From Nonomuraea terrae (lineage in GTDB: Bacteria; Actinomycetota; Actinomycetes; Streptosporangiales; Streptosporangiaceae), in the NCBI RefSeq assembly GCF_004348995.1, contig NZ_SMKQ01000024.1:1-64000 (forward strand): a DNA stretch of 64,000 nt, given 5' to 3'. Positions 43,451-52,031 of this stretch are shown in pieces; position 1 is the stretch's first letter, and each line of letters begins with the position of its first letter. The notes under the pieces were generated by a model that worked only from the letters and a program-made list of their open reading frames with translations, was not told the DNA's origin and ran no database searches. Both the position numbers and the translations under genes were made by a program.

Positions 43451-45016
43451 TCATGCTGCGGGCTGCTCGGCCGTGGTCGCCGGCTGCCCGGTCGGAGGGA
43501 CGTGCCGGAGCCTGACCGCCGCCAGGATCGCGGCGACGGCGGCGATCGCGGCGGAGATGACGGCGGCGACATTGAGCCCGCTGGTGAAGGCCTCGCGGGC
43601 TGGGACGAGCAGTGCGGCGCCCAGGTCGGCCGGGAGCCCCTGGGCCGCGGAGACTGCTCCGCCGAGGCTGTCGCGGCCGGCCGAAGCGGCCTCGGGCGGC
43701 AGGTTCGCGGGCAGTGTGCCATCGGTTTGGGCGCGGTACACGGCGACTCCCAGGCTGCCGATGAGCGCGATACCGAGCGAGATGCCCAGGTCGCTGCAGG
43801 TGGTGGCCAGCCCGGAGGCTGCTCCCGCCTTTTGCGGTGGTACGGAGCCGACGACCATGTTGGTGGTCAACGCCATGGACGGGGCGACGGCGGGGTAGAG
43901 CACCATGAAGCCCGCGACCAGCAGCGGCAGGCCGCCGACGGCGCCGACCTGGGTGAGCATCAGATAGCCGATCACCTGGACGACCAGTCCGGCGGCGATC
44001 AGGTGGCCAGGACGGACGCGGCGTACCAGGACCGGCGAGAGGGTGGAGACGACCACCAGCAGGGCCGCGCCGGGCAGCACCCACAGCCCTGCCCGCAGGG
44101 GCGACAGGCCCTCGACGAGTTGCAGATACTGCGTGAAGAGCAGGTAGATGCCGCCGAGCGCGGTCGCGGAGAGCAGGAACACCCCCAGCGCGCCGCTGAC
44201 CGTGCGGTTGGCGAACAGTCGCACGTCGAGCAGTGGCTCGGGCAGGCGCAGTTGGCGAACGACGAACCAGGCACCGAAGGCCAGCCCGAGCCCGATGCTC
44301 ACCACCGCCGCTGCGAGCCCGCCGTCCTTGGCCAGCTCCTTGACGCCGTAGACGATCGGCAGCAGGGTCGCCAGCGACAGCGCCACGCTGAACAGGTCGG
44401 GCCTGCCCGCGGCCGGGTTGCGGTGATCGGGCAGCAGCAGCGGGGCGCCGATCGCCACGATCACCATGACGGGCACGCCGACCAGGAAGGCCGCGCGCCA
44501 GGAGAACGTCTCCAGCAGGGCCCCGCCGATCACCGGGCCGAGGCCGGTACCGACGGAGATGGCGCCTGACCAGACGCCCACGGCGATGCCGCGCTGCCGG
44601 GCGTCGGTGAAGGTGGCGAAGATCAGACCGAGAGTGGCCGGCATCTGGGTGGCCGCGGCGATGCCGAGCACGGCCCGCCAGACGATCATCAGGCCGGGGT
44701 CGGAGGTGTTGGCGGCGATCACCGAGACGACGGCGAAGACGGCCGCGCCCGCGACCAGCAGCCGCCGATGACCGATCCTGTCGCCCAGAGTGCCCATGGT
44801 GACCAGCAGCCCGGCCATCAGGAAGCCGTAGATGTCGACGATCCATAAGGTCTGGGTGCTGCTCGGCTTCAGGTCCGCGGCCAGCTGGGGGATGGCCAGG
44901 AACAAGATCGTGAGCATCATGAACAGCAGCAGGGCGGGCATGACCAGCACGGCCAGCCCGAGCCAGGTCCTGACACCGGCACGTCCGCCGGGGTCGATCT
45001 GTGTGGATGACTGCAA
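43451..45016 (-). CDS. MFS exporter, 14-helix DHA2 family (SmvA/MmrA-like)
   Basis: 521 residues, about 14 helices. LWIVDIYGFLMAGLLVTMGT and GDRIGHRRLLVAG (motif A), RAVLGIAAATQMPATLG, and SVGTGLGPVIGGALLE (motif C) are clear. SmvA-like pumps expel quaternary ammonium compounds and dyes. The start is TTG 45016 with AAGGGAC upstream. The 296-bp gap before DUF4396 holds a MarR-like inverted repeat and two copies of the 17-bp copper box, so the pump may be under redox, drug or metal control. Confidence 0.9.
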   Translation of the reverse strand: MQSSTQIDPGGRAGVRTWLGLAVLVMPALLLFMMLTILFLAIPQLAADLKPSSTQTLWIVDIYGFLMAGLLVTMGTLGDRIGHRRLLVAGAAVFAVVSVIAANTSDPGLMIVWRAVLGIAAATQMPATLGLIFATFTDARQRGIAVGVWSGAISVGTGLGPVIGGALLETFSWRAAFLVGVPVMVIVAIGAPLLLPDHRNPAAGRPDLFSVALSLATLLPIVYGVKELAKDGGLAAAVVSIGLGLAFGAWFVVRQLRLPEPLLDVRLFANRTVSGALGVFLLSATALGGIYLLFTQYLQLVEGLSPLRAGLWVLPGAALLVVVSTLSPVLVRRVRPGHLIAAGLVVQVIGYLMLTQVGAVGGLPLLVAGFMVLYPAVAPSMALTTNMVVGSVPPQKAGAASGLATTCSDLGISLGIALIGSLGVAVYRAQTDGTLPANLPPEAASAGRDSLGGAVSAAQGLPADLGAALLVPAREAFTSGLNVAAVISAAIAAVAAILAAVRLRHVPPTGQPATTAEQPAA

Positions 45017-45132
45017 AGGGAGTCCCTTCGGATGATTGCCGGACCGCTCGTCGTCAGGGCTTGGCGCGGGCTCCCGGACAGGTGCTCGGCAAGGTATACG
45101 GTACGGAGGCAGGGTATATCAAGGTGGGCGGC

Positions 45133-45149
45133 ATACCCCATTCGGGTTT
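45133..45149. promoter_or_regulatory. 17-bp CsoR-like box upstream of the MFS exporter
   Basis: ATACCCCATTCGGGTTT fits ATACCC-N5-GGGTAT with one mismatch in the right arm. It lies 117 bp before the minus-strand MFS start. One of five such sites in the copper island. Confidence 0.5.
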
Positions 45150-45238
45150 CTGATCCAGCCGCGCTCGGCATGTTGTCCGCGGGCGGGGACGAAGGCGTTG
45201 CAGTTGCACTTGCCCCACCCTGGTTCGACCGTACAACC

Positions 45239-45263
45239 ATCTAGTTGCAGAACACAACTAGAT
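45239..45263. promoter_or_regulatory. Perfect inverted repeat ATCTAGTTG-N7-CAACTAGAT
   Basis: Nine-base arms match perfectly around CAGAACA. The TAGTTG/CAACTA core resembles MarR-family operators of actinobacteria. It lies between the divergent MFS and DUF4396 genes. No MarR gene is adjacent, so a regulator elsewhere would be needed. Confidence 0.6.
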
Positions 45264-45286
45264 TCCAGTCTGGCATTTTCCGCTAT

Positions 45287-45303
45287 ATACCCCGTATCCG
45301 TAT
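45287..45303. promoter_or_regulatory. 17-bp CsoR-like box upstream of DUF4396
   Basis: ATACCCCGTATCCGTAT keeps the outer ATAC and GTAT of the 17-bp motif. It ends nine bases before the ATG, so a bound repressor would block transcription start or initiation directly. Confidence 0.6.
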
Positions 45304-45312
45304 GATGGCTGC

Positions 45313-45837
45313 ATGGACCATAGCGATCACCATCCGCCAGAACCCACCCGGCTGCCCGAGCAGGACCATTCGGGTGCGCACCACCCGGCCGGCTCCACTG
45401 TGGCGACCTGGGGAATGGCCGCGCAGGCGACGCTGCACTGTCTGATCGGCTGTGCCATCGGTGAAGTGCTGGGCATGGTCATCGGCACCGCCACGGGGAT
45501 GTCCGACCTCGCCACGGTGGCGCTCGCGGTCGCCTTGGCGTTCGTGTTCGGCTACGCGCTGACGATGCGCGGAGTGCTCCGTACCGGAGTGGACTTCCGC
45601 ACCGCGTTGAAGGTCGCGCTGGCCGCGGACACCCTCTCCATCGCGGTCATGGAGATCGTGGACAACGCGGTGATGCTGACCGTGCCCGGCGCCATGGACG
45701 CCGGACTGACTACGTGGCTGTTCTGGCTGGCGCTGGCCGGAGCCTTCGCGGTGGCCTTCATCGTGACGACTCCGGTGAACAAGTGGCTGATCTCCCGGGG
45801 CAAGGGCCATGCGGTGATGCACCAGTACCACCACTGA
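45313..45837 (+). CDS. DUF4396 membrane protein, copper-linked
   Basis: 174 residues. A His-rich head (MDHSDHHPPEP and QDHSGAHHPAG), then about four helices with ATLHCLIGCAIGEVLGM and a C-terminal HAVMHQYHH. DUF4396 proteins often sit beside copper-resistance genes. Cys, Met and His clusters at the N-terminus and in helix 1 could handle Cu(I). It is the only plus-strand gene in this part of the island and has its own copper box. Confidence 0.88.
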   Translation: MDHSDHHPPEPTRLPEQDHSGAHHPAGSTVATWGMAAQATLHCLIGCAIGEVLGMVIGTATGMSDLATVALAVALAFVFGYALTMRGVLRTGVDFRTALKVALAADTLSIAVMEIVDNAVMLTVPGAMDAGLTTWLFWLALAGAFAVAFIVTTPVNKWLISRGKGHAVMHQYHH

Positions 45838-45854
45838 TCACCTCGGTCGTACGG

Positions 45855-45889
45855 ATGTGGCCGAAGGCGGGGATCGCCTTCGGCCACAT
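45855..45889. terminator. Bidirectional terminator between DUF4396 and copA
   Basis: Perfect 14-bp stem (ATGTGGCCGAAGGC and its complement) with a 7-base loop, in the 64 bp between the converging stops. It would end both transcripts. Confidence 0.85.
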
Positions 45890-45901
45890 GGACGAGGGCT
45901 C

Positions 45902-48106
45902 CTATCTGAAGCGGCGCAGCCTGAGGCTGTTGCTGACCACGAACACGCTGGAGAACGCCATCGCCGCCCCCGCGATCATCGGGTTGAGCAGGCCCAGCGC
46001 GGCCAGCGGCAGCGCGGCCACGTTGTAGGCAAACGCCCAGAACAGGTTGCCCTTGATGACCTTGAGCGTCCGGCGCGCGAGCCTGATCGCGTCGGGCGCC
46101 ACCTTCAGGTCACCCCGCACGAGCGTGAGGTCGGAGGCCTCGATCGCCGCGTCGGTGCCGGTGCCCATCGCGAGGCCCAGGTCGGCCTGGGCCAGCGCGG
46201 CGGCGTCGTTGACGCCATCACCCACCATGGCCACGACCTTGCCCTCGGACTGCAGCCGCTTGACCACGTCGACCTTGTCGGCGGGCAGCACCTCGGCGAT
46301 CACCTCGTCGATGCCCACCTCGGCCGCCACGCTCCTGGCCACGGCCTCGTTGTCACCGGTGAGCAGCACCGGGGACAGACCCAGCGCCTTGAGCTGCTCG
46401 ATCGCCTCCTTGCTGGTCGGCTTGACCACGTCGGCCACGACCAGCACCGCGCGGGCCCGGCCGTCCCAGCCGACCGCGACCGCCGTACGGCCCTCGGCCT
46501 GCTCGTCGGCGAGCTCGCGTTCCAGGTCGGCGGGCAGGTGCTGGGACCACTCCGCCAGCAGCCTGGGCCGGCCGACCAGGACCGCGTGGCCGTCCACGAC
46601 GCCCTGCACGCCGAGGCCCTCGACGTTGGCGAAGTCCTCGACGGTGGCGTCCGACTGAGCCGCCCGGGCGATGGCCTGGGCGATGGGGTGCTCCGAGGCG
46701 TGCTCCAGCGCGCCGGCCAGCCGCAGCACCTCCTCGCGGCTCTCGCCCTCGGCCAGGTGGACGGCGGTGAGGGTCATCCTGCCCTCGGTGACCGTTCCGG
46801 TCTTGTCGAGCACGATGGTGTCGATGCGACGGGTGGACTCCAGCACCTCGGGGCCCTTGATCAGGATGCCCATCTGCGCGCCCCGGCCGGTGCCGACCAG
46901 CAGCGCCGTCGGGGTGGCCAGGCCGAGCGCGCACGGGCAGGCGATGATCAGCACCGCCACCGCCGCGGTGAACGCCGCCGCGACGCCGTTGCCGGTGCCG
47001 AGCCAGAAGCCCAGCGTGCCGACCGCCAGCACGATCACGATCGGGACGAAGATGCCGGAGATGCGATCGGCGAGGCGCTGTACGGCGGCCTTGCCGGTCT
47101 GCGCTTCCTCGACCAGCTTGGCCATCTGGGCGAGCTGCGTGTCGGCGCCGACGCGGGTCGCCTTGACGATCAGGCGGCCGCCCGCGTTCACCGTCGCCCC
47201 GGTCACCCCGTCGCCCGGCCCGACCTCGACCGGAACGGATTCGCCGGTCAGCATCGAGGCGTCCACCGCGGAGGAGCCATCGACGATCACTCCGTCGGTG
47301 GCGATCTTCTCGCCGGGCCGTACCACGAAGGTGTCGCCGACCTTCAGCTGCTCGGTGGGGATGCGGCGGCCGTCGGCGAGCTCGACGTCCTTGGCGCCCA
47401 GCTCCAGCAGGGCCCGCAGCGCCGCGCCGGCCCGCCGCTTGGAGCGGGCCTCGAAGTAGCGCCCGGCCAGGATGAACGCCGTCACCCCGGCCGCGGCCTC
47501 CAGGTAGATGTTGCCGGAGCCGTCACTGCGCGCGATGGTGAACTCGAAGGGATGCGTCATCCCGGGCGTGCCGGCCGTGCCGAAGAACAGCGCCCACAAC
47601 GACCAGCCGAGCGCCGCCAGCGTACCCATCGAGATGAGTGTGTCCATCGTCGCGGCGCCGTGCCGCAGGTTGGTCCACGCCGCCTTGTGGAACGGCCACC
47701 CGGCGTACACCACCACCGGCGCGGCCAGTACCAGCGACAGCCACTGCCAGTTGGTGAACTGCAACGGCGGGATCATCGCCATCGCGACCACGGGAACGCC
47801 CAGCACGACCGACGTGATCAGCCGCTGACGCAACGGCCGCAGCTCGTCCTCCGGCTCGTGCGCCGGCTCGGCCTTGGGCGGGGCGGGCAGCGCGGCGGTG
47901 TAGCCGACCTTCTCCACTTCCGCGATCAGCTGCTGCGGGTCGACGCCGTCGGGAAAGGTGACCTTCGCCTTCTCCGTCGCGTAGTTGACCGTCGCTGTCA
48001 CACCGTCGAGCTTGTTCAGCTTGCGCTCGATGCGGTTGGCGCAGGACGCGCAGGTCATGCCGCCGATCGTGAGTTCGACAGCCCTGCCTTCGGTTACGGA
48101 AGACAT
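45902..48106 (-). CDS. copA: Copper-exporting P1B-type ATPase
   Basis: 734 residues. One N-terminal heavy-metal domain with GMTCASC (Cys19 and Cys22), then eight helices. Actuator motif MLTGESVP, transport motif [10 protein letters not shown] in helix 6, phosphorylation site [11 protein letters not shown] motif EHPIAQAIA and hinge [10 protein letters not shown]. The helix 7/8 residues in AFAYNVAA and [11 protein letters not shown] suit Cu(I). It is the last gene of the csoR-copZ-secreted-copA operon, 29 bp after the secreted-protein gene. Confidence 0.96.
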
Positions 48107-48135
48107 TCCACCTCTCCTTCCTCTGCGTCCTGCGA

Positions 48136-49110
48136 TCAGTGCGTGTGGTCGTCGTCGTGGGAGGCGCCGGCGCTCGGCTCCGCCGTGGGCCTGGGCTGTC
48201 CGGCCCCGGCCCGGGCGGTGAAGTCCGCGGTACGGACCTTGCCCTCGTGCTGGAAGTCCAGGAACAGCCGGTAGTCGCCGGCGCTCGGCACCTCGGCGTA
48301 GAACACGATCTCCGGGCCCGCCGCCGTCTTGCCGTCGCCGGGCGTGCCGTCCGGATGAACGTGCAGGTAGGCAAGGTCACCGGCCCGCAGAGCCACCAGA
48401 TGTCCGTACGCCTCAAGGTACGGCTGCAGGTCGGTCACCGGCTTGCCGTCCTTGCTGACGCTCAGCGTGAGCTTGCTCGATCGGCCCGGCACCAGGTCGC
48501 CGTCCAGAGAGACCGTGTACCCGTCGACCTCCGCGGTCCGGCTGACCTCGGTCAAGGGCTTGGGCTCGTAGTCACCGGCGACGAGCAGGTCCGTGCCGAG
48601 GGTCAGGCCGCTCCCGCCCGCGGGGACGAAGTCCGCGAACGCCCGGTACGCGCCCGGCTCGTCCAGCGTCAGCTTCGTCGTCCACACGCCATCGGCGGCC
48701 CGGGTCGGGTGCAGGTGCTGGAACGTCGCCAGATCCCGCGAGACCACGATGAAGTGCAGTTCCTTCTCGTGCTCGACCTCGTAGCCGGTCACCGGCTTGC
48801 CGTCGACGCCCGTCACGGTGAAACGGAAATCGGTGGGTTCGCCGGCCTTGACGGTGGTCAGGGGGTTGAGGGTGTAGCCCTTGTCGGACACTTGGAGCCC
48901 TCCGGGGGTATCGCCGGCGGCCTGTTGCGTGGTGCCGCCATGGTCGTCACCGTGGCCTTCCGCCGCTTCCTCGGCGGGGGCCATGGCGCTGTGGTCCTCC
49001 GCCGGTAACGGGGTGCCGGCCGGGCCGATCGCTCGCCCCGCGCCCAGGGCGCCACCGAAGACGACGGCCAGCCCCAGGGCGTAGACGCCAAGTCTGGTCG
49101 CGGTGTTCAT
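48136..49110 (-). CDS. His-rich exported protein of the copper operon
   Basis: 324 residues. One N-terminal helix (about 7-30) acts as signal or anchor; then Ig-like beta domains with [17 protein letters not shown] and [10 protein letters not shown], and a His/Asp tail [10 protein letters not shown]. The paired HLHP and HVHP motifs recur in periplasmic or surface proteins of copper operons and could chelate copper outside the cell. Its start overlaps the copZ stop (ATGA), so production is coupled. Exact function is not established. Confidence 0.82.
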
Positions 49111-49319
49111 GCCGGATTCACCACCTCGTAGCCGGCTTCCTCGACGGCCGCGATGATCTTCGCCGAGTCGATCGGGCTGTCGCTGCCGACGGTCAGCAGG
49201 CCGCCGGCGAGGTCGACCTCCACGGAGGTGACCCCCGCGACCTCGCCGACCTCCTCCTTGACCGAGCTCACGCAGTGTCCGCAGGTCATGCCCTTGACGG
49301 TGTAGGTGGCGGTAGCCAT
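49107..49319 (-). CDS. copZ: Copper chaperone, heavy-metal-associated domain
   Basis: 70 residues, one ferredoxin-like HMA domain. GMTCGHCVSSV carries the Cu(I)-binding Cys13 and Cys16. It would carry Cu(I) to CopA or to CsoR. ATG 49319 is preferred over the upstream TTG because the fold begins at once (ATYTVKGMTC). It lies 26 bp after csoR and overlaps the next start. Confidence 0.94.
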   Translation of the reverse strand: MATATYTVKGMTCGHCVSSVKEEVGEVAGVTSVEVDLAGGLLTVGSDSPIDSAKIIAAVEEAGYEVVNPA

Positions 49320-49345
49320 GTCAATCAACCCTTTCTATGTCTTCG

Positions 49346-49627
49346 TCAGGAACGAACGAGCCGCGCAATGGCCTCGGAAGCCTCTTTGATCTTGGCTTCC
49401 GCCTCGGGGCCGCCCTTGACGGTGGCTTCGGCGACGCAGTGCGCCAGGTGGTCCTCTAGCAGGGAGATGGCGACGGACTGCAGGGCGCTCGTGGCCGCCG
49501 ACACCTGGGTGAGGACGTCGATGCAGTACTTGTCGTCCTCGACCATCCGCTGCAGCCCGCGCACCTGACCCTCGATCCGGCGCAACCGGCGCAGCTGGCC
49601 CTGCTTGTTGTGGCTGTACCCGACCAT
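49346..49627 (-). CDS. csoR: Copper-sensing repressor CsoR
   Basis: 93 residues, DUF156 four-helix fold. The Cu(I) ligands of CsoR are present: Cys35 in DDKYCIDVL and His60/Cys64 in LEDHLAHCV. Metal-free CsoR binds GC-rich inverted repeats and releases DNA on Cu(I) binding. AGGAGG lies seven bases before ATG 49627. A copper box sits 32 bp upstream of the start, so it represses its own operon, and similar boxes occur at the other island promoters. Confidence 0.95.
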
Positions 49628-49658
49628 GGCCGCCTCCTTCGTTCTTCTTGAAATTACC

Positions 49659-49675
49659 ATACCCCCCTATCGTAT
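49659..49675. promoter_or_regulatory. 17-bp CsoR-like box upstream of csoR
   Basis: ATACCCCCCTATCGTAT, outer ATAC/GTAT intact and C-rich left half. It is 32 bp before the csoR start on the minus strand and is the expected autoregulatory operator. Confidence 0.75.
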
Positions 49676-49742
49676 GCGCGCGTCAAGGCTGGACAGCGTG
49701 CTCCCTGGAATCACGTGGCGGCAGCTCGGTGGCCGCCGGGCG

Positions 49743-50342
49743 TCATCGAAGCCGTTCGAGCATCTTCCGCATCTGGTCCACCTGGTCCTGCTGGCCGGTC
49801 ACCATCGTGCCGGCCAGCTGCTTGGCCTGCGGGTTCTCGCCTTGCCGCTGTTCAGTGCGAGCCATGGCGATCGCGCCTTCGTGATGCCTGATCATCAGGC
49901 GGAGGAATTCCTTGTCGAACGTGGTTCCCTCGGCCGCTGCCAGCCTGTTCATGTCGGCTTCGGACATCGCTCCGGGCATCTCGTGCCCCATCCCGGCGGT
50001 GGGCGCCGGCTTCCCCCACTCCTTCAGCCACTGCCGCATGGTCGCGATCTCCGGCTGCTGAGTGGCCTTGATCTCCGCCGCCAAGTCCTTGACCTGCGTG
50101 CTGGACGCCCGCGTCCCGGCCATCTCGGCCATCTCGACCGCCTGTCGATGGTGCACGCTCATCATCTGCGCGAACATCACGTCGGCATCGTTGAAGTCGG
50201 CAGTGGGCCTCGTCGTCACGGTCGTGGTGGCATTCGGCAGGACAGACACGTTCTGAGCCGCCGGGACGCCGCCACAGGCGACGAGGGCCAGCGCTCCCGC
50301 CACCAATGACGTTCCACGCGTGGCCGCTGATTTGCGGAACAT
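49743..50342 (-). CDS. DUF305 lipoprotein, probable copper binder
   Basis: 199 residues. Lipoprotein signal with ALALVACGG. DUF305 helical domain in two halves: DVMFAQMMSVHHRQAVEMAE and LRLMIRHHEGAIAMA, rich in Met and His on one face. DUF305 proteins accompany copper genes in many actinobacteria and are thought to bind copper outside the membrane. Its promoter region faces the copper boxes of the divergent MFS gene 180 bp away. Confidence 0.9.
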   Translation of the reverse strand: MFRKSAATRGTSLVAGALALVACGGVPAAQNVSVLPNATTTVTTRPTADFNDADVMFAQMMSVHHRQAVEMAEMAGTRASSTQVKDLAAEIKATQQPEIATMRQWLKEWGKPAPTAGMGHEMPGAMSEADMNRLAAAEGTTFDKEFLRLMIRHHEGAIAMARTEQRQGENPQAKQLAGTMVTGQQDQVDQMRKMLERLR

Positions 50343-50518
50343 TGCCGTCGAACCCCCGATATCGGCATCTCCACTTGCTCTGACCAGCGCATACCTTCCC
50401 CAGCACGACCGGCATTACCGTGCCGGCATCCGCCCCGAAGCCGTTCGAGGACGCCTCTGCTCCACCTCAGCGGCGATCGCGGCGGGTCTTGGCGTCTGAG
50501 GGGCGCCGCGCTTGACAG

Positions 50519-50535
50519 ATACCCCCCAGGTGTAT
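50519..50535. promoter_or_regulatory. 17-bp CsoR-like box, distal site of the second MFS promoter
   Basis: ATACCCCCCAGGTGTAT keeps ATAC and GTAT with a C-run. Its centre is 32 bp upstream of the next box, about three helical turns. Confidence 0.65.
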
Positions 50536-50554
50536 GTATGTTCCCGGAACATAC
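50536..50554. promoter_or_regulatory. Perfect palindrome between the two copper boxes
   Basis: GTATGTTCC-C-GGAACATAC has perfect 9-bp arms around one base. It abuts the distal copper box and overlaps the first four bases of the proximal one. It may be a site for another dimeric regulator or a stem in the leader. Confidence 0.6.
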
Positions 50555-50567
50555 CCCCTATGGGTAT
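50551..50567. promoter_or_regulatory. 17-bp CsoR-like box, proximal site of the second MFS promoter
   Basis: ATACCCCCTATGGGTAT has perfect 6-bp arms around CCTAT and is the most symmetrical of the five copies. It lies 33 bp before the MFS start. Confidence 0.78.
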
Positions 50568-50600: not shown

Positions 50601-52031
50601 ATGTCCGAACCATCCCCCCGGCGTTGGACCGCACTGGCCCTGATCGCCACCGCCCAGTTCATCGTCATCATGGACACGTCGATCATCGGCGTAGCCCTCC
50701 CCCGCATACAGGAAGACCTCGGCTTCTCCCAGGAGAACCTGTCCTGGGTCTTCAACGCCTACGTCGTCGCCTTCGGCGGGCTGCTGCTCCTCGGCGGTCG
50801 ACTGTCCGACCTGTTCGGCGCCCGCAGGTTGTTCGGCGCCGGCTGGCTCATCCTGCTCATCGGGTCCCTGGTGGCCGGTGTCGCTCCCGAAGTGTGGGTC
50901 GAGCTCACCGGCCGTGCCGTGCAGGGCGTCGGTGCCGCCCTGATCGCGCCGTCCGCCCTCACCCTGCTCATGACGCTGTTCGGTCACGACCCCAAGGAGC
51001 TCACCAAGGCCCTGGCCCTGTACGGTGCGGCGGCCCCGGCAGGTGGCACCGCGGGTGTCTTCCTCGGCGGCGTCATCACCGAGTACCTGAGCTGGCCGTG
51101 GGTCTTCTACATCAACATCCCCATCGCGCTCGTCGCCCTGCTCGCCACCGGGCCGCTGATGCCCGCGGCCCAGGCCCGGCGCGGCTCCGTCGACGTGCTC
51201 GGCGCGCTCACCGTCACGCTCGGCCTCGGCGCGACCGTCTACGCCATCGTCCGTGCGCCGGAGACCGGCTGGGGGTCCGCGCAGACCTGGATCGTGATGG
51301 CCGGCGCCGTGGCGCTGCTCGCCGCCTTCGTCGCGATCCAGGCCCGCCGCCGCGAACCGCTCATGCGCCTGTCCATCTTCCGCACCCCCGGCCTCGCCGC
51401 CGCGAACCTCACCCAGCTGCTGCTCGGCGGGGCATGGATCCCGATGTGGTTCTTCCTCAACCTCTACCTGCAGCAGGTCCTCGGCTACAGCGCCTTTCCC
51501 AGCGGTGCCGCGCTGCTGCCGATGACCGTCCTCATCATGGTCGGCATGGTTGTCCTGGCGCCCAGGACCATCGGCCGGTTCGGCCCCAAGGCCGTGACGG
51601 TCACCGGGCTGGCCCTGCTCGCGGCGGGGATGGCTTGGCTGTCGCTCATCAGCCCGCAGGGCGGCTTCGTCGTCGACGTCCTGCCGGCCAGCCTCGTCGC
51701 CGCGCTCGGCATGTCGCTGGCCTTCATCCCGTCCCTGGGTACCGCCATCTCCTCCGCCCGTCCCGAGGAGGGCGGCCTGGCCTCCGGCATCGTCAACACG
51801 AGCTACCAGGTCGGCTCCGCGCTCGGCCTCGCGGCGATGACCGCCGTAGCCGCCGCCAACGGTTCCGGACAACTCGGCAACCTGACGGCCCTGACCAGCG
51901 GCTTCTCCGCGGCGTTCATCGGAGCGGCCGGCATCGCCCTCGCCGGCGCGCTCCTCGCCGCCGCCACCCTGCGCACGCGCGGGCCCGGACGCGACGAGCC
52001 CGCCGAGGAGGCCACCTCCGTACGCGGCTGA
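50601..52031 (+). CDS. MFS exporter (DHA2 type) behind two CsoR-like boxes
   Basis: 476 residues, about 14 helices. IVIMDTSIIGVALPRIQ, GGRLSDLFGARR (motif A), RAVQGVGAALIAPSAL (motif B) and GGTAGVFLGGVITEYLSW (motif C) place it with EmrB/QacA-like pumps. ATG 50601 has GGAGAG upstream and starts right before helix 1. Two copper boxes and a perfect palindrome precede it, which is unusual for a drug pump and suggests copper-inducible expression. Whether it exports copper complexes, metallophores or drugs is unknown. Confidence 0.92.
   Translation: MSEPSPRRWTALALIATAQFIVIMDTSIIGVALPRIQEDLGFSQENLSWVFNAYVVAFGGLLLLGGRLSDLFGARRLFGAGWLILLIGSLVAGVAPEVWVELTGRAVQGVGAALIAPSALTLLMTLFGHDPKELTKALALYGAAAPAGGTAGVFLGGVITEYLSWPWVFYINIPIALVALLATGPLMPAAQARRGSVDVLGALTVTLGLGATVYAIVRAPETGWGSAQTWIVMAGAVALLAAFVAIQARRREPLMRLSIFRTPGLAAANLTQLLLGGAWIPMWFFLNLYLQQVLGYSAFPSGAALLPMTVLIMVGMVVLAPRTIGRFGPKAVTVTGLALLAAGMAWLSLISPQGGFVVDVLPASLVAALGMSLAFIPSLGTAISSARPEEGGLASGIVNTSYQVGSALGLAAMTAVAAANGSGQLGNLTALTSGFSAAFIGAAGIALAGALLAAATLRTRGPGRDEPAEEATSVRG

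Follow-up and report, generated by a model that had tools for sequence, protein, structure and literature searches.

In this work, we analysed a 64,000-nucleotide stretch of Nonomuraea terrae DNA (contig NZ_SMKQ01000024.1, positions 1 to 64,000; hereafter the window), which contains a copper island with a csoR gene and five 17-bp boxes located upstream of csoR, of a gene for a DUF4396 membrane protein, and of two exporter genes of the major facilitator superfamily (MFS1 and MFS2). Our results indicate that these boxes very probably serve as operators for a CsoR repressor that senses copper(I), with a regulon that would reach DUF4396 and MFS2. The direct basis of this reading is the sequence itself, the ranks of the boxes in a weight-matrix scan, their conservation upstream of homologous genes and the conserved residues of CsoR. 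As relatives keep the boxes before both genes, copper handling is the likely job of DUF4396 and of the drug-exporter-like MFS2. The operator type is already known, and the membership of DUF4396 and of a DHA2-type MFS exporter appears to be new in the literature searched, a comparison made apart from the target list of the Streptomyces lividans CsoR regulon paper (Dwarakanath 2012).

Boxes of the CsoR operator type in the copper island

The boxes are listed below by matrix rank, with mismatches counted against ATACCCN5GGGTAT.

50551..50567, no strand assigned: ATACCCCCTATGGGTAT, 17 bp, 0 mismatches, rank 1, score 23.4; inner site of the MFS2 tandem
50519..50535, no strand assigned: ATACCCCCCAGGTGTAT, 17 bp, 1 mismatch, rank 2, score 20.8; outer site of the MFS2 tandem
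49659..49675, no strand assigned: ATACCCCCCTATCGTAT, 17 bp, 2 mismatches, dyad intact, rank 3, score 18.3; before csoR
45133..45149, no strand assigned: ATACCCCATTCGGGTTT, 17 bp, 1 mismatch, rank 4, score 15.3; before MFS1
45287..45303, no strand assigned: ATACCCCGTATCCGTAT, 17 bp, 2 mismatches, dyad intact, rank 5, score 15.2; before DUF4396
45101..45117, no strand assigned: GTACGGAGGCAGGGTAT, weak sixth box, 3 mismatches, rank 6, score 10.8, left tract degenerate; before MFS1

The genes that follow them are:

43451..45016, minus strand: MFS1, DHA2-type exporter, LfrA/QepA/QacA-like (PF07690; top-scoring NCBIfam models QepA and LfrA, neither anywhere near its cut-off)
45313..45837, plus strand: DUF4396 membrane protein, 174 amino acids, four predicted helices (PF14342, E 2e-44; model of moderate confidence)
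49346..49627, minus strand: csoR, start taken at 49627 rather than 49660 (PF02583 for 49346-49660; S. lividans CsoR 4adz, E 2.6e-35 for 49346-49627)
50601..52031, plus strand: MFS2, DHA2-type exporter (PF07690, E 8.8e-50; TIGR00711, 218.7 bits, cut-off 230.2)

A first-pass annotation of the window, made from its letters, had described five such 17-mers with ATACC at the left end and, in four of them, GTAT at the right; each was found at its place, with 17 bp and the ends as described (five of five and four of five, respectively). The count of five was right as far as it went, all five being real, and overlooked the weaker sixth box at 45101, which reads with an intact dyad and lies exactly 32 bp from 45133, an offset equal to that between 50519 and 50551. 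The G-tract pseudopalindrome ATACCC-N5-GGGTAT is present with 0 to 2 mismatches in all five sites, and a TAC-N9-GTA inverted repeat is kept by 45287, 49659, 50519 and 50551, and by the weak 45101.

The resemblance to published actinobacterial CsoR operators, also proposed in that annotation, was confirmed against the consensus of the type 2 CsoR operator of S. lividans, ATATACCCCTNAGGGGTATAT (Tan et al., PMC3902906), with the exception of 45133, where the right GTA is gone. According to the available text of that paper, base swaps in the TAC/GTA dyad leave no detectable CsoR binding. The S. lividans regulon, as presented there, and the window have in common the operator consensus, the TAC-N9-GTA dyad, the CsoR residues, and csoR and copZA-type targets; they differ in that the operators named in that text are those of csoR, copZA1 and copZA2, with no DUF4396 or MFS target, whereas the window carries tandem boxes before MFS2 and one box before DUF4396. 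A predicted CsoR target set wider than csoR and copZA has likewise been presented for Streptomyces coelicolor, including, in the available text, loci such as SCO4137, SCO7265, SCO1044, SCO3280 and SCO6710 (PMC6414726).

Matrix ranks and conservation upstream of homologous genes

The bare consensus alone is weak evidence, since its enrichment in the window is slight: with up to three mismatches it gave 13 matches against 8.05 expected, and 13 was reached in 2 of 100 shuffles. Therefore, a 25-nt weight matrix was built from the best box (up to three mismatches) near csoR in other named genomes, with the window excluded; of 79 loci with related csoR genes, among which the nearest named relatives are Nonomuraea, 74 yielded a box, for 71 unique sites. 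In the matrix scan the five sites occupy ranks 1 to 5 among 63,976 window positions, and positions below rank 6 score at most 9.4. In 40 first-order Markov sequences, the mean number of matches per 64 kb scoring at least as high was 0 for 50551, 50519 and 49659, 0.025 for 45133 and 45287, and 0.15 for 45101.

For the conservation tests, the complement matrix and downstream windows served as controls. In a family sample of 200 genomes, PF14342 exceeded its cut-off in 72, and in a phylum sample of 396 it did so in 42. With a matrix score of at least 15 counted as a box, one lies upstream of DUF4396 in 53 of 67 homologues from the family and 18 of 27 from the phylum, against 0/67 and 0/27 with the complement matrix and 0/65 and 1/24 in the downstream windows. 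Counted by up to two mismatches, it was found in 26/30 and 29/37 family loci and in 18/29 phylum loci, 17 of them with a perfect box. The family set held 76 matches including the window's own, from which 70 loci were taken (5 were not) and 67 aligned, L178-L180 being left out for want of a tblastn match; the phylum set comprised 29 loci taken and 27 matrix-scored, among the matches listed. A CsoR-like gene was found at only 4 of the 67 family loci (L119, L126, L143 and L150), the first 30 of which had flanks of about 1.5 kb or less. Furthermore, on a Streptomyces parvus plasmid DUF4396 is preceded at 57 bp by a perfect box, and asymmetric boxes resembling 45287 precede the same-genus homologues L127 and L151, that of L151 scoring only 9.6.

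Regarding MFS2, 29 of the 41 matches besides the window's own were studied; a box lies within 750 bp upstream in 28/29 and within 400 bp in 16/29, against 0/29 with the complement matrix. One to three upstream boxes were present in all 11 homologues examined with at least 74% identity (12 among the matches listed), and neighbouring boxes are spaced 32-38 bp apart in 47 of 65 pairs, related pairs counted. Dual CsoR sites in gut Firmicutes likewise number two per promoter, in a 36-38 bp spacing class; in the available text of that study they lie at csoR and copA type genes (COG1937, COG2217; PMC4938975), whereas the dual sites described here precede MFS2, in Actinomycetota, mostly at 32-38 bp, and the spacing measures of the two studies may differ.

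For MFS1, a box was found upstream in 2 of 29 relatives among the matches listed (L215 and L216); both boxes are strong, both homologues are among the five closest, and L216 is next to a csoR gene. MFS1 may be a weak regulon member; as an equal one it finds no support in this count of 2/29. The regulon beyond csoR-copZ-copA with four promoters, as the first-pass annotation predicted it, is supported by conservation, strongly at DUF4396 and MFS2 and weakly at MFS1.

Distribution of the box in the genome

A genome search for the consensus pattern with up to two mismatches, to which the genome-wide statements here refer (matrix scores being another matter), returned 49 places against 36 for the reversed control pattern. 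The TAC-N9-GTA dyad is kept at only 9 of the 49 places. Four of these are window sites; a second copZ (C458) is preceded by two, a csoR paralogue (C266) and a DJ-1/PfpI gene (C88) by one each, and the last falls inside an open reading frame (ORF; C68). Among pattern matches, then, the refuting condition named in the first-pass annotation, many copies of the same quality in unrelated gaps, was not borne out. The remaining two-mismatch places were mostly judged by sequence alone; two one-mismatch places within ORFs (C188, C316) and a match that falls in the second ytkA-like gene (C458:4840) were discounted as chance.

The second copZ belongs to a copZ-ytkA-copA operon in the same genome (C458, L016 1880-5338), and its two CsoR boxes (5281 and 5322), 41 bp apart, lie just before copZ. 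The claim that boxes are confined to the gaps between copper genes held for the top-ranked sites of the window, all five of which lie in gaps as the genes are placed here, and failed for the whole genome, as the second copZ operon, the DJ-1/PfpI gene and the csoR paralogue carry one too.

In front of the DJ-1/PfpI gene (C88, L017 5735-6361), a strong CsoR box was observed about 65 bp upstream. It overlaps the 3' end of an ORF of 118 aa predicted ahead of the gene (its last codons) and is for this reason not strictly in a gap. DJ-1/PfpI was considered and rejected as a conserved member, with a box in 4/9 same-genus and 0/20 other homologues (29 relatives among the matches listed), besides the genome's own gene.

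The window CsoR

The window CsoR belongs to family PF02583 (DUF156), with 104.8 bits against a cut-off of 22.8, and in alignment with 4adz it retains the Cys-His-Cys set as C35, H60 and C64. These were assigned from the positions that we take to be the copper ligands of S. lividans CsoR. For S. lividans CsoR, the available text (PMC3902906) gives Arg57, Gln81 and RLXR as DNA-contact residues; their counterparts in the window CsoR are R17, Q41, R89 and R92, if an offset of 3 separates the chain numbering from that of the paper, as assumed here. RicR (NF052430) is the best NCBIfam model, at 145.3 bits, short of its cut-off of 175 bits; this likeness concerns the protein model.

Putative promoter elements and proposed mechanism

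The remaining genes of the island are:

45902..48106, minus strand: copA, copper P1B-type ATPase (TIGR01511 and TIGR01525 above cut-off)
48136..49110, minus strand: YtkA-like protein gene, between copZ and copA (PF13115, weak, below cut-off)
49107..49319, minus strand: copZ, heavy-metal-associated (HMA) copper chaperone (PF00403, E 2.5e-17; start chosen at 49319, Pfam scan on 49107-49328)
49743..50342, minus strand: DUF305/CopM-like protein gene (PF03713; NF049983 CopM above cut-off), divergent from MFS2

At MFS2, the outer box 50519 lies between TTGACA (50512-50517) and a putative -10 element, TATGTT (50537-50542), which would place the inner box 50551 at or just after the transcription start. 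Similarly, on the minus strand, the csoR box 49659 lies between TTGACG (49686-49681) and a putative -10, TATGGT (49661-49656). The DUF4396 box 45287 overlaps a candidate -10, TATGAT (45301-45306), 9 bp before the ATG, and the DUF4396 mRNA is possibly leaderless. Where both putative elements are seen, the spacers are 19 bp. Of 540 site-strands, 53 have a TTGACA-like hexamer (at least 5 of 6 positions) just 5' of the box, compared with 9 of 540 random positions, and TTGACA adjoins a box also in the close MFS2 homologues L182, L184, L185 and L186. The hexamer and the placement of the boxes suit a repressor blocking the polymerase.

In the mechanism that we infer, from CsoR binding and the promoter elements through derepression to the functions of DUF4396 and MFS2, CsoR tetramers would occupy the TAC-N9-GTA pseudopalindromes when copper is not in excess. 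Since the boxes lie between or overlap the putative promoter elements, CsoR bound between -35 and -10 (MFS2, csoR) or over the -10 (DUF4396) would block RNA polymerase. Cu(I) bound to Cys35, His60 and Cys64 would release CsoR, and csoR-copZ-ytkA-copA (treated here as one operon), DUF4396 and MFS2 would then be induced together, possibly with the divergent DUF305 gene: the tandem operators sit in the gap common to this gene and MFS2, and both may be co-regulated by them. Elsewhere in the genome, the second copZ operon and the DJ-1/PfpI gene would join the regulon, MFS1 being a possible weak member.

Candidate roles of DUF4396 and MFS2

From its proposed control by a CsoR operator, DUF4396 is probably a copper-handling membrane protein. 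Conserved ligand-type residues and gene context are what point to possible copper binding or transport: among 95 homologues at least 40% identical to the window's protein (those under 40% being left out), conservation reaches 98% or more at H42, C43, C47, E51, D106, M113, E114, D117, M128, H166, H170 and H173. As for context, Kineococcus plasmid pKRAD01 has the order DUF305, CsoR-family regulator, HMA protein, P-type ATPase, DUF4396, and, outside the phylum, Ensifer pT173e (L300 5563-9639) has in a row an HMA gene, DUF4396, a copper-type P-ATPase with HMA domains and a MerR-family gene, these neighbours being identified with Pfam. An AlphaFold model from a two-row alignment has four long helices (mean predicted local distance difference test, 69.6); a fold search with it gave no match at E 0.001 or better, and a PDB sequence search gave no meaningful match (one at E 0.51). 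The only mention of DUF4396 returned by a full-text literature search was as the name of a gene flanking a metal-resistance cluster. In the Kineococcus cluster (L301, 6664-7596), a F510_1955 family glycosylhydrolase gene was observed directly after DUF4396. SCO6710, a predicted CsoR target in the available text of PMC6414726, is a putative glycosyl hydrolase.

MFS2 is probably an exporter used in copper stress. In its distant group (about 66% identity), boxes are followed by a small HMA-type reading frame and then by MFS2 in 5 of 6 loci inspected, with HMA confirmed by Pfam in L193 and L063, and csoR and copZ are often near. The homologues lack conserved Cys and His, and across 40 sequences nine Met show conservation of at least 90%. 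A literature search on CsoR and MFS found no MFS target of CsoR in titles or abstract openings, a search on a copper-linked YfmO gave nothing usable among the papers listed, and the question was settled neither by the paper on the Kineococcus copper proteome nor by that on S. tsukubaensis SigG1, as far as their available text goes.

A joint reading of these data, which we hold tentatively and somewhat short of an even chance, is that DUF4396 represents an unrecognised copper-handling membrane family, with a Cu(I) path or store formed by HC-x3-C-x3-E (helix 1), D-x6-ME-x2-D (helix 3) and H-x3-H-x2-H (C-terminal end), CsoR-induced across Actinomycetota and, in a proteobacterial copper cluster, retained next to a MerR-type regulator; and that, behind tandem CsoR operators, a CopZ-like chaperone and a DHA2 MFS exporter would together offer a second way out for copper, proton-driven and parallel to CopA. 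Nearly as probable as not is the alternative that the substrates of MFS1 and MFS2 are drugs or copper-binding metabolites, copper control of the two exporters serving that purpose instead of metal export: both proteins are DHA2-type and match drug exporters, and 29 of the 30 MFS2 proteins with residue counts contain no cysteine, but MFS2 of the distant group follows a copper-chaperone-like frame behind the boxes, and the nine conserved Met also speak for metal, some of them being perhaps general to the transporter family.

With CsoR control of both genes as proposed, the widespread domain DUF4396 would gain a testable role in copper homeostasis, DHA2 exporters would be linked to a copper repressor, and exact operators are supplied for bench work; if MFS2 does move copper, the P-type ATPase would not be the sole export route of actinobacteria.

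Weighing of the CsoR reading

Several points count against CsoR control as proposed here. Regarding the sites, the dyad of 45133 is broken, as its right half reads GGGTTT (GTT in place of GTA). Regarding conservation, the matrix score is under 15 in 14/67 family and 9/27 phylum homologues of DUF4396, no box with up to three mismatches precedes DUF4396 in the Kineococcus or Ensifer cluster, the three closest MFS1 homologues among the matches listed (82-85% identity) have no site, and the downstream windows of MFS2 match in 14/29, probably because csoR is near. The consensus promoter scan (16-18 bp spacers) lists none of the promoters described above, as their 19-bp spacers exceed its range. In addition, the matrix sites were gathered with the consensus of the first-pass annotation, which makes them independent of the window and not of the pattern; where csoR and MFS2 diverge, a training box may belong to MFS2; and the homologues are akin to each other, so that the conservation counts are not independent. 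Finally, the genome encodes three CsoR-family genes, each with Cys-His-Cys (that of the window, C266 and C47), so that any of the three proteins may be the one that binds the boxes.

Binding of the boxes mainly by the C266 or C47 protein, or by several CsoR-family proteins, instead of the window CsoR is a serious though unlikely possibility. It draws on the shared Cys-His-Cys set and on the dyad-intact box that the C266 gene has of its own; against it, a box is found near csoR at the 74 of 79 related loci, and the 1,825 bases surrounding the C47 gene contain no box scoring above 2.0. As a separate observation, the box of the C266 paralogue (L025, 3877-4184) lies just before its start.

We regard it as improbable that csoR and MFS2 are the only functional targets, with 45133, 45101 and 45287 as relics or chance matches. 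The missing dyad of 45133 would fit this view, as would the degenerate right tract of 45287, whose score of 15.2 is below the second training quantile of 18.3, and the real MFS1 operator could be an inverted repeat at 45239-45263 (described below). Opposed to it are the scores of 45133 and 45287, for which 0.025 matches are expected per 64 kb, the site at 53/67 DUF4396 homologues, with the similar asymmetric form shared by L127 and L151, and the strong boxes at the MFS1 homologues L215 and L216. That the boxes are chance G+C-rich palindromes, as the 49 genome places against 36 for the reversed pattern might suggest, is rejected as extremely improbable, being contradicted by the matrix ranks, the dyad filter and conservation with near-zero controls.

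Additional observations

Two further features were recorded. The gap between MFS1 and DUF4396 contains a perfect 9-bp inverted repeat, ATCTAGTTG-N7-CAACTAGAT, at 45239-45263; a different regulator, perhaps of TetR type, may use it as its operator. Two relatives (L052 18404-19698 and L058 13773-15312) have a pyridine-nucleotide-disulphide reductase gene with boxes at its start or close to it, and in L058 a divergent HMA gene adjoins them.

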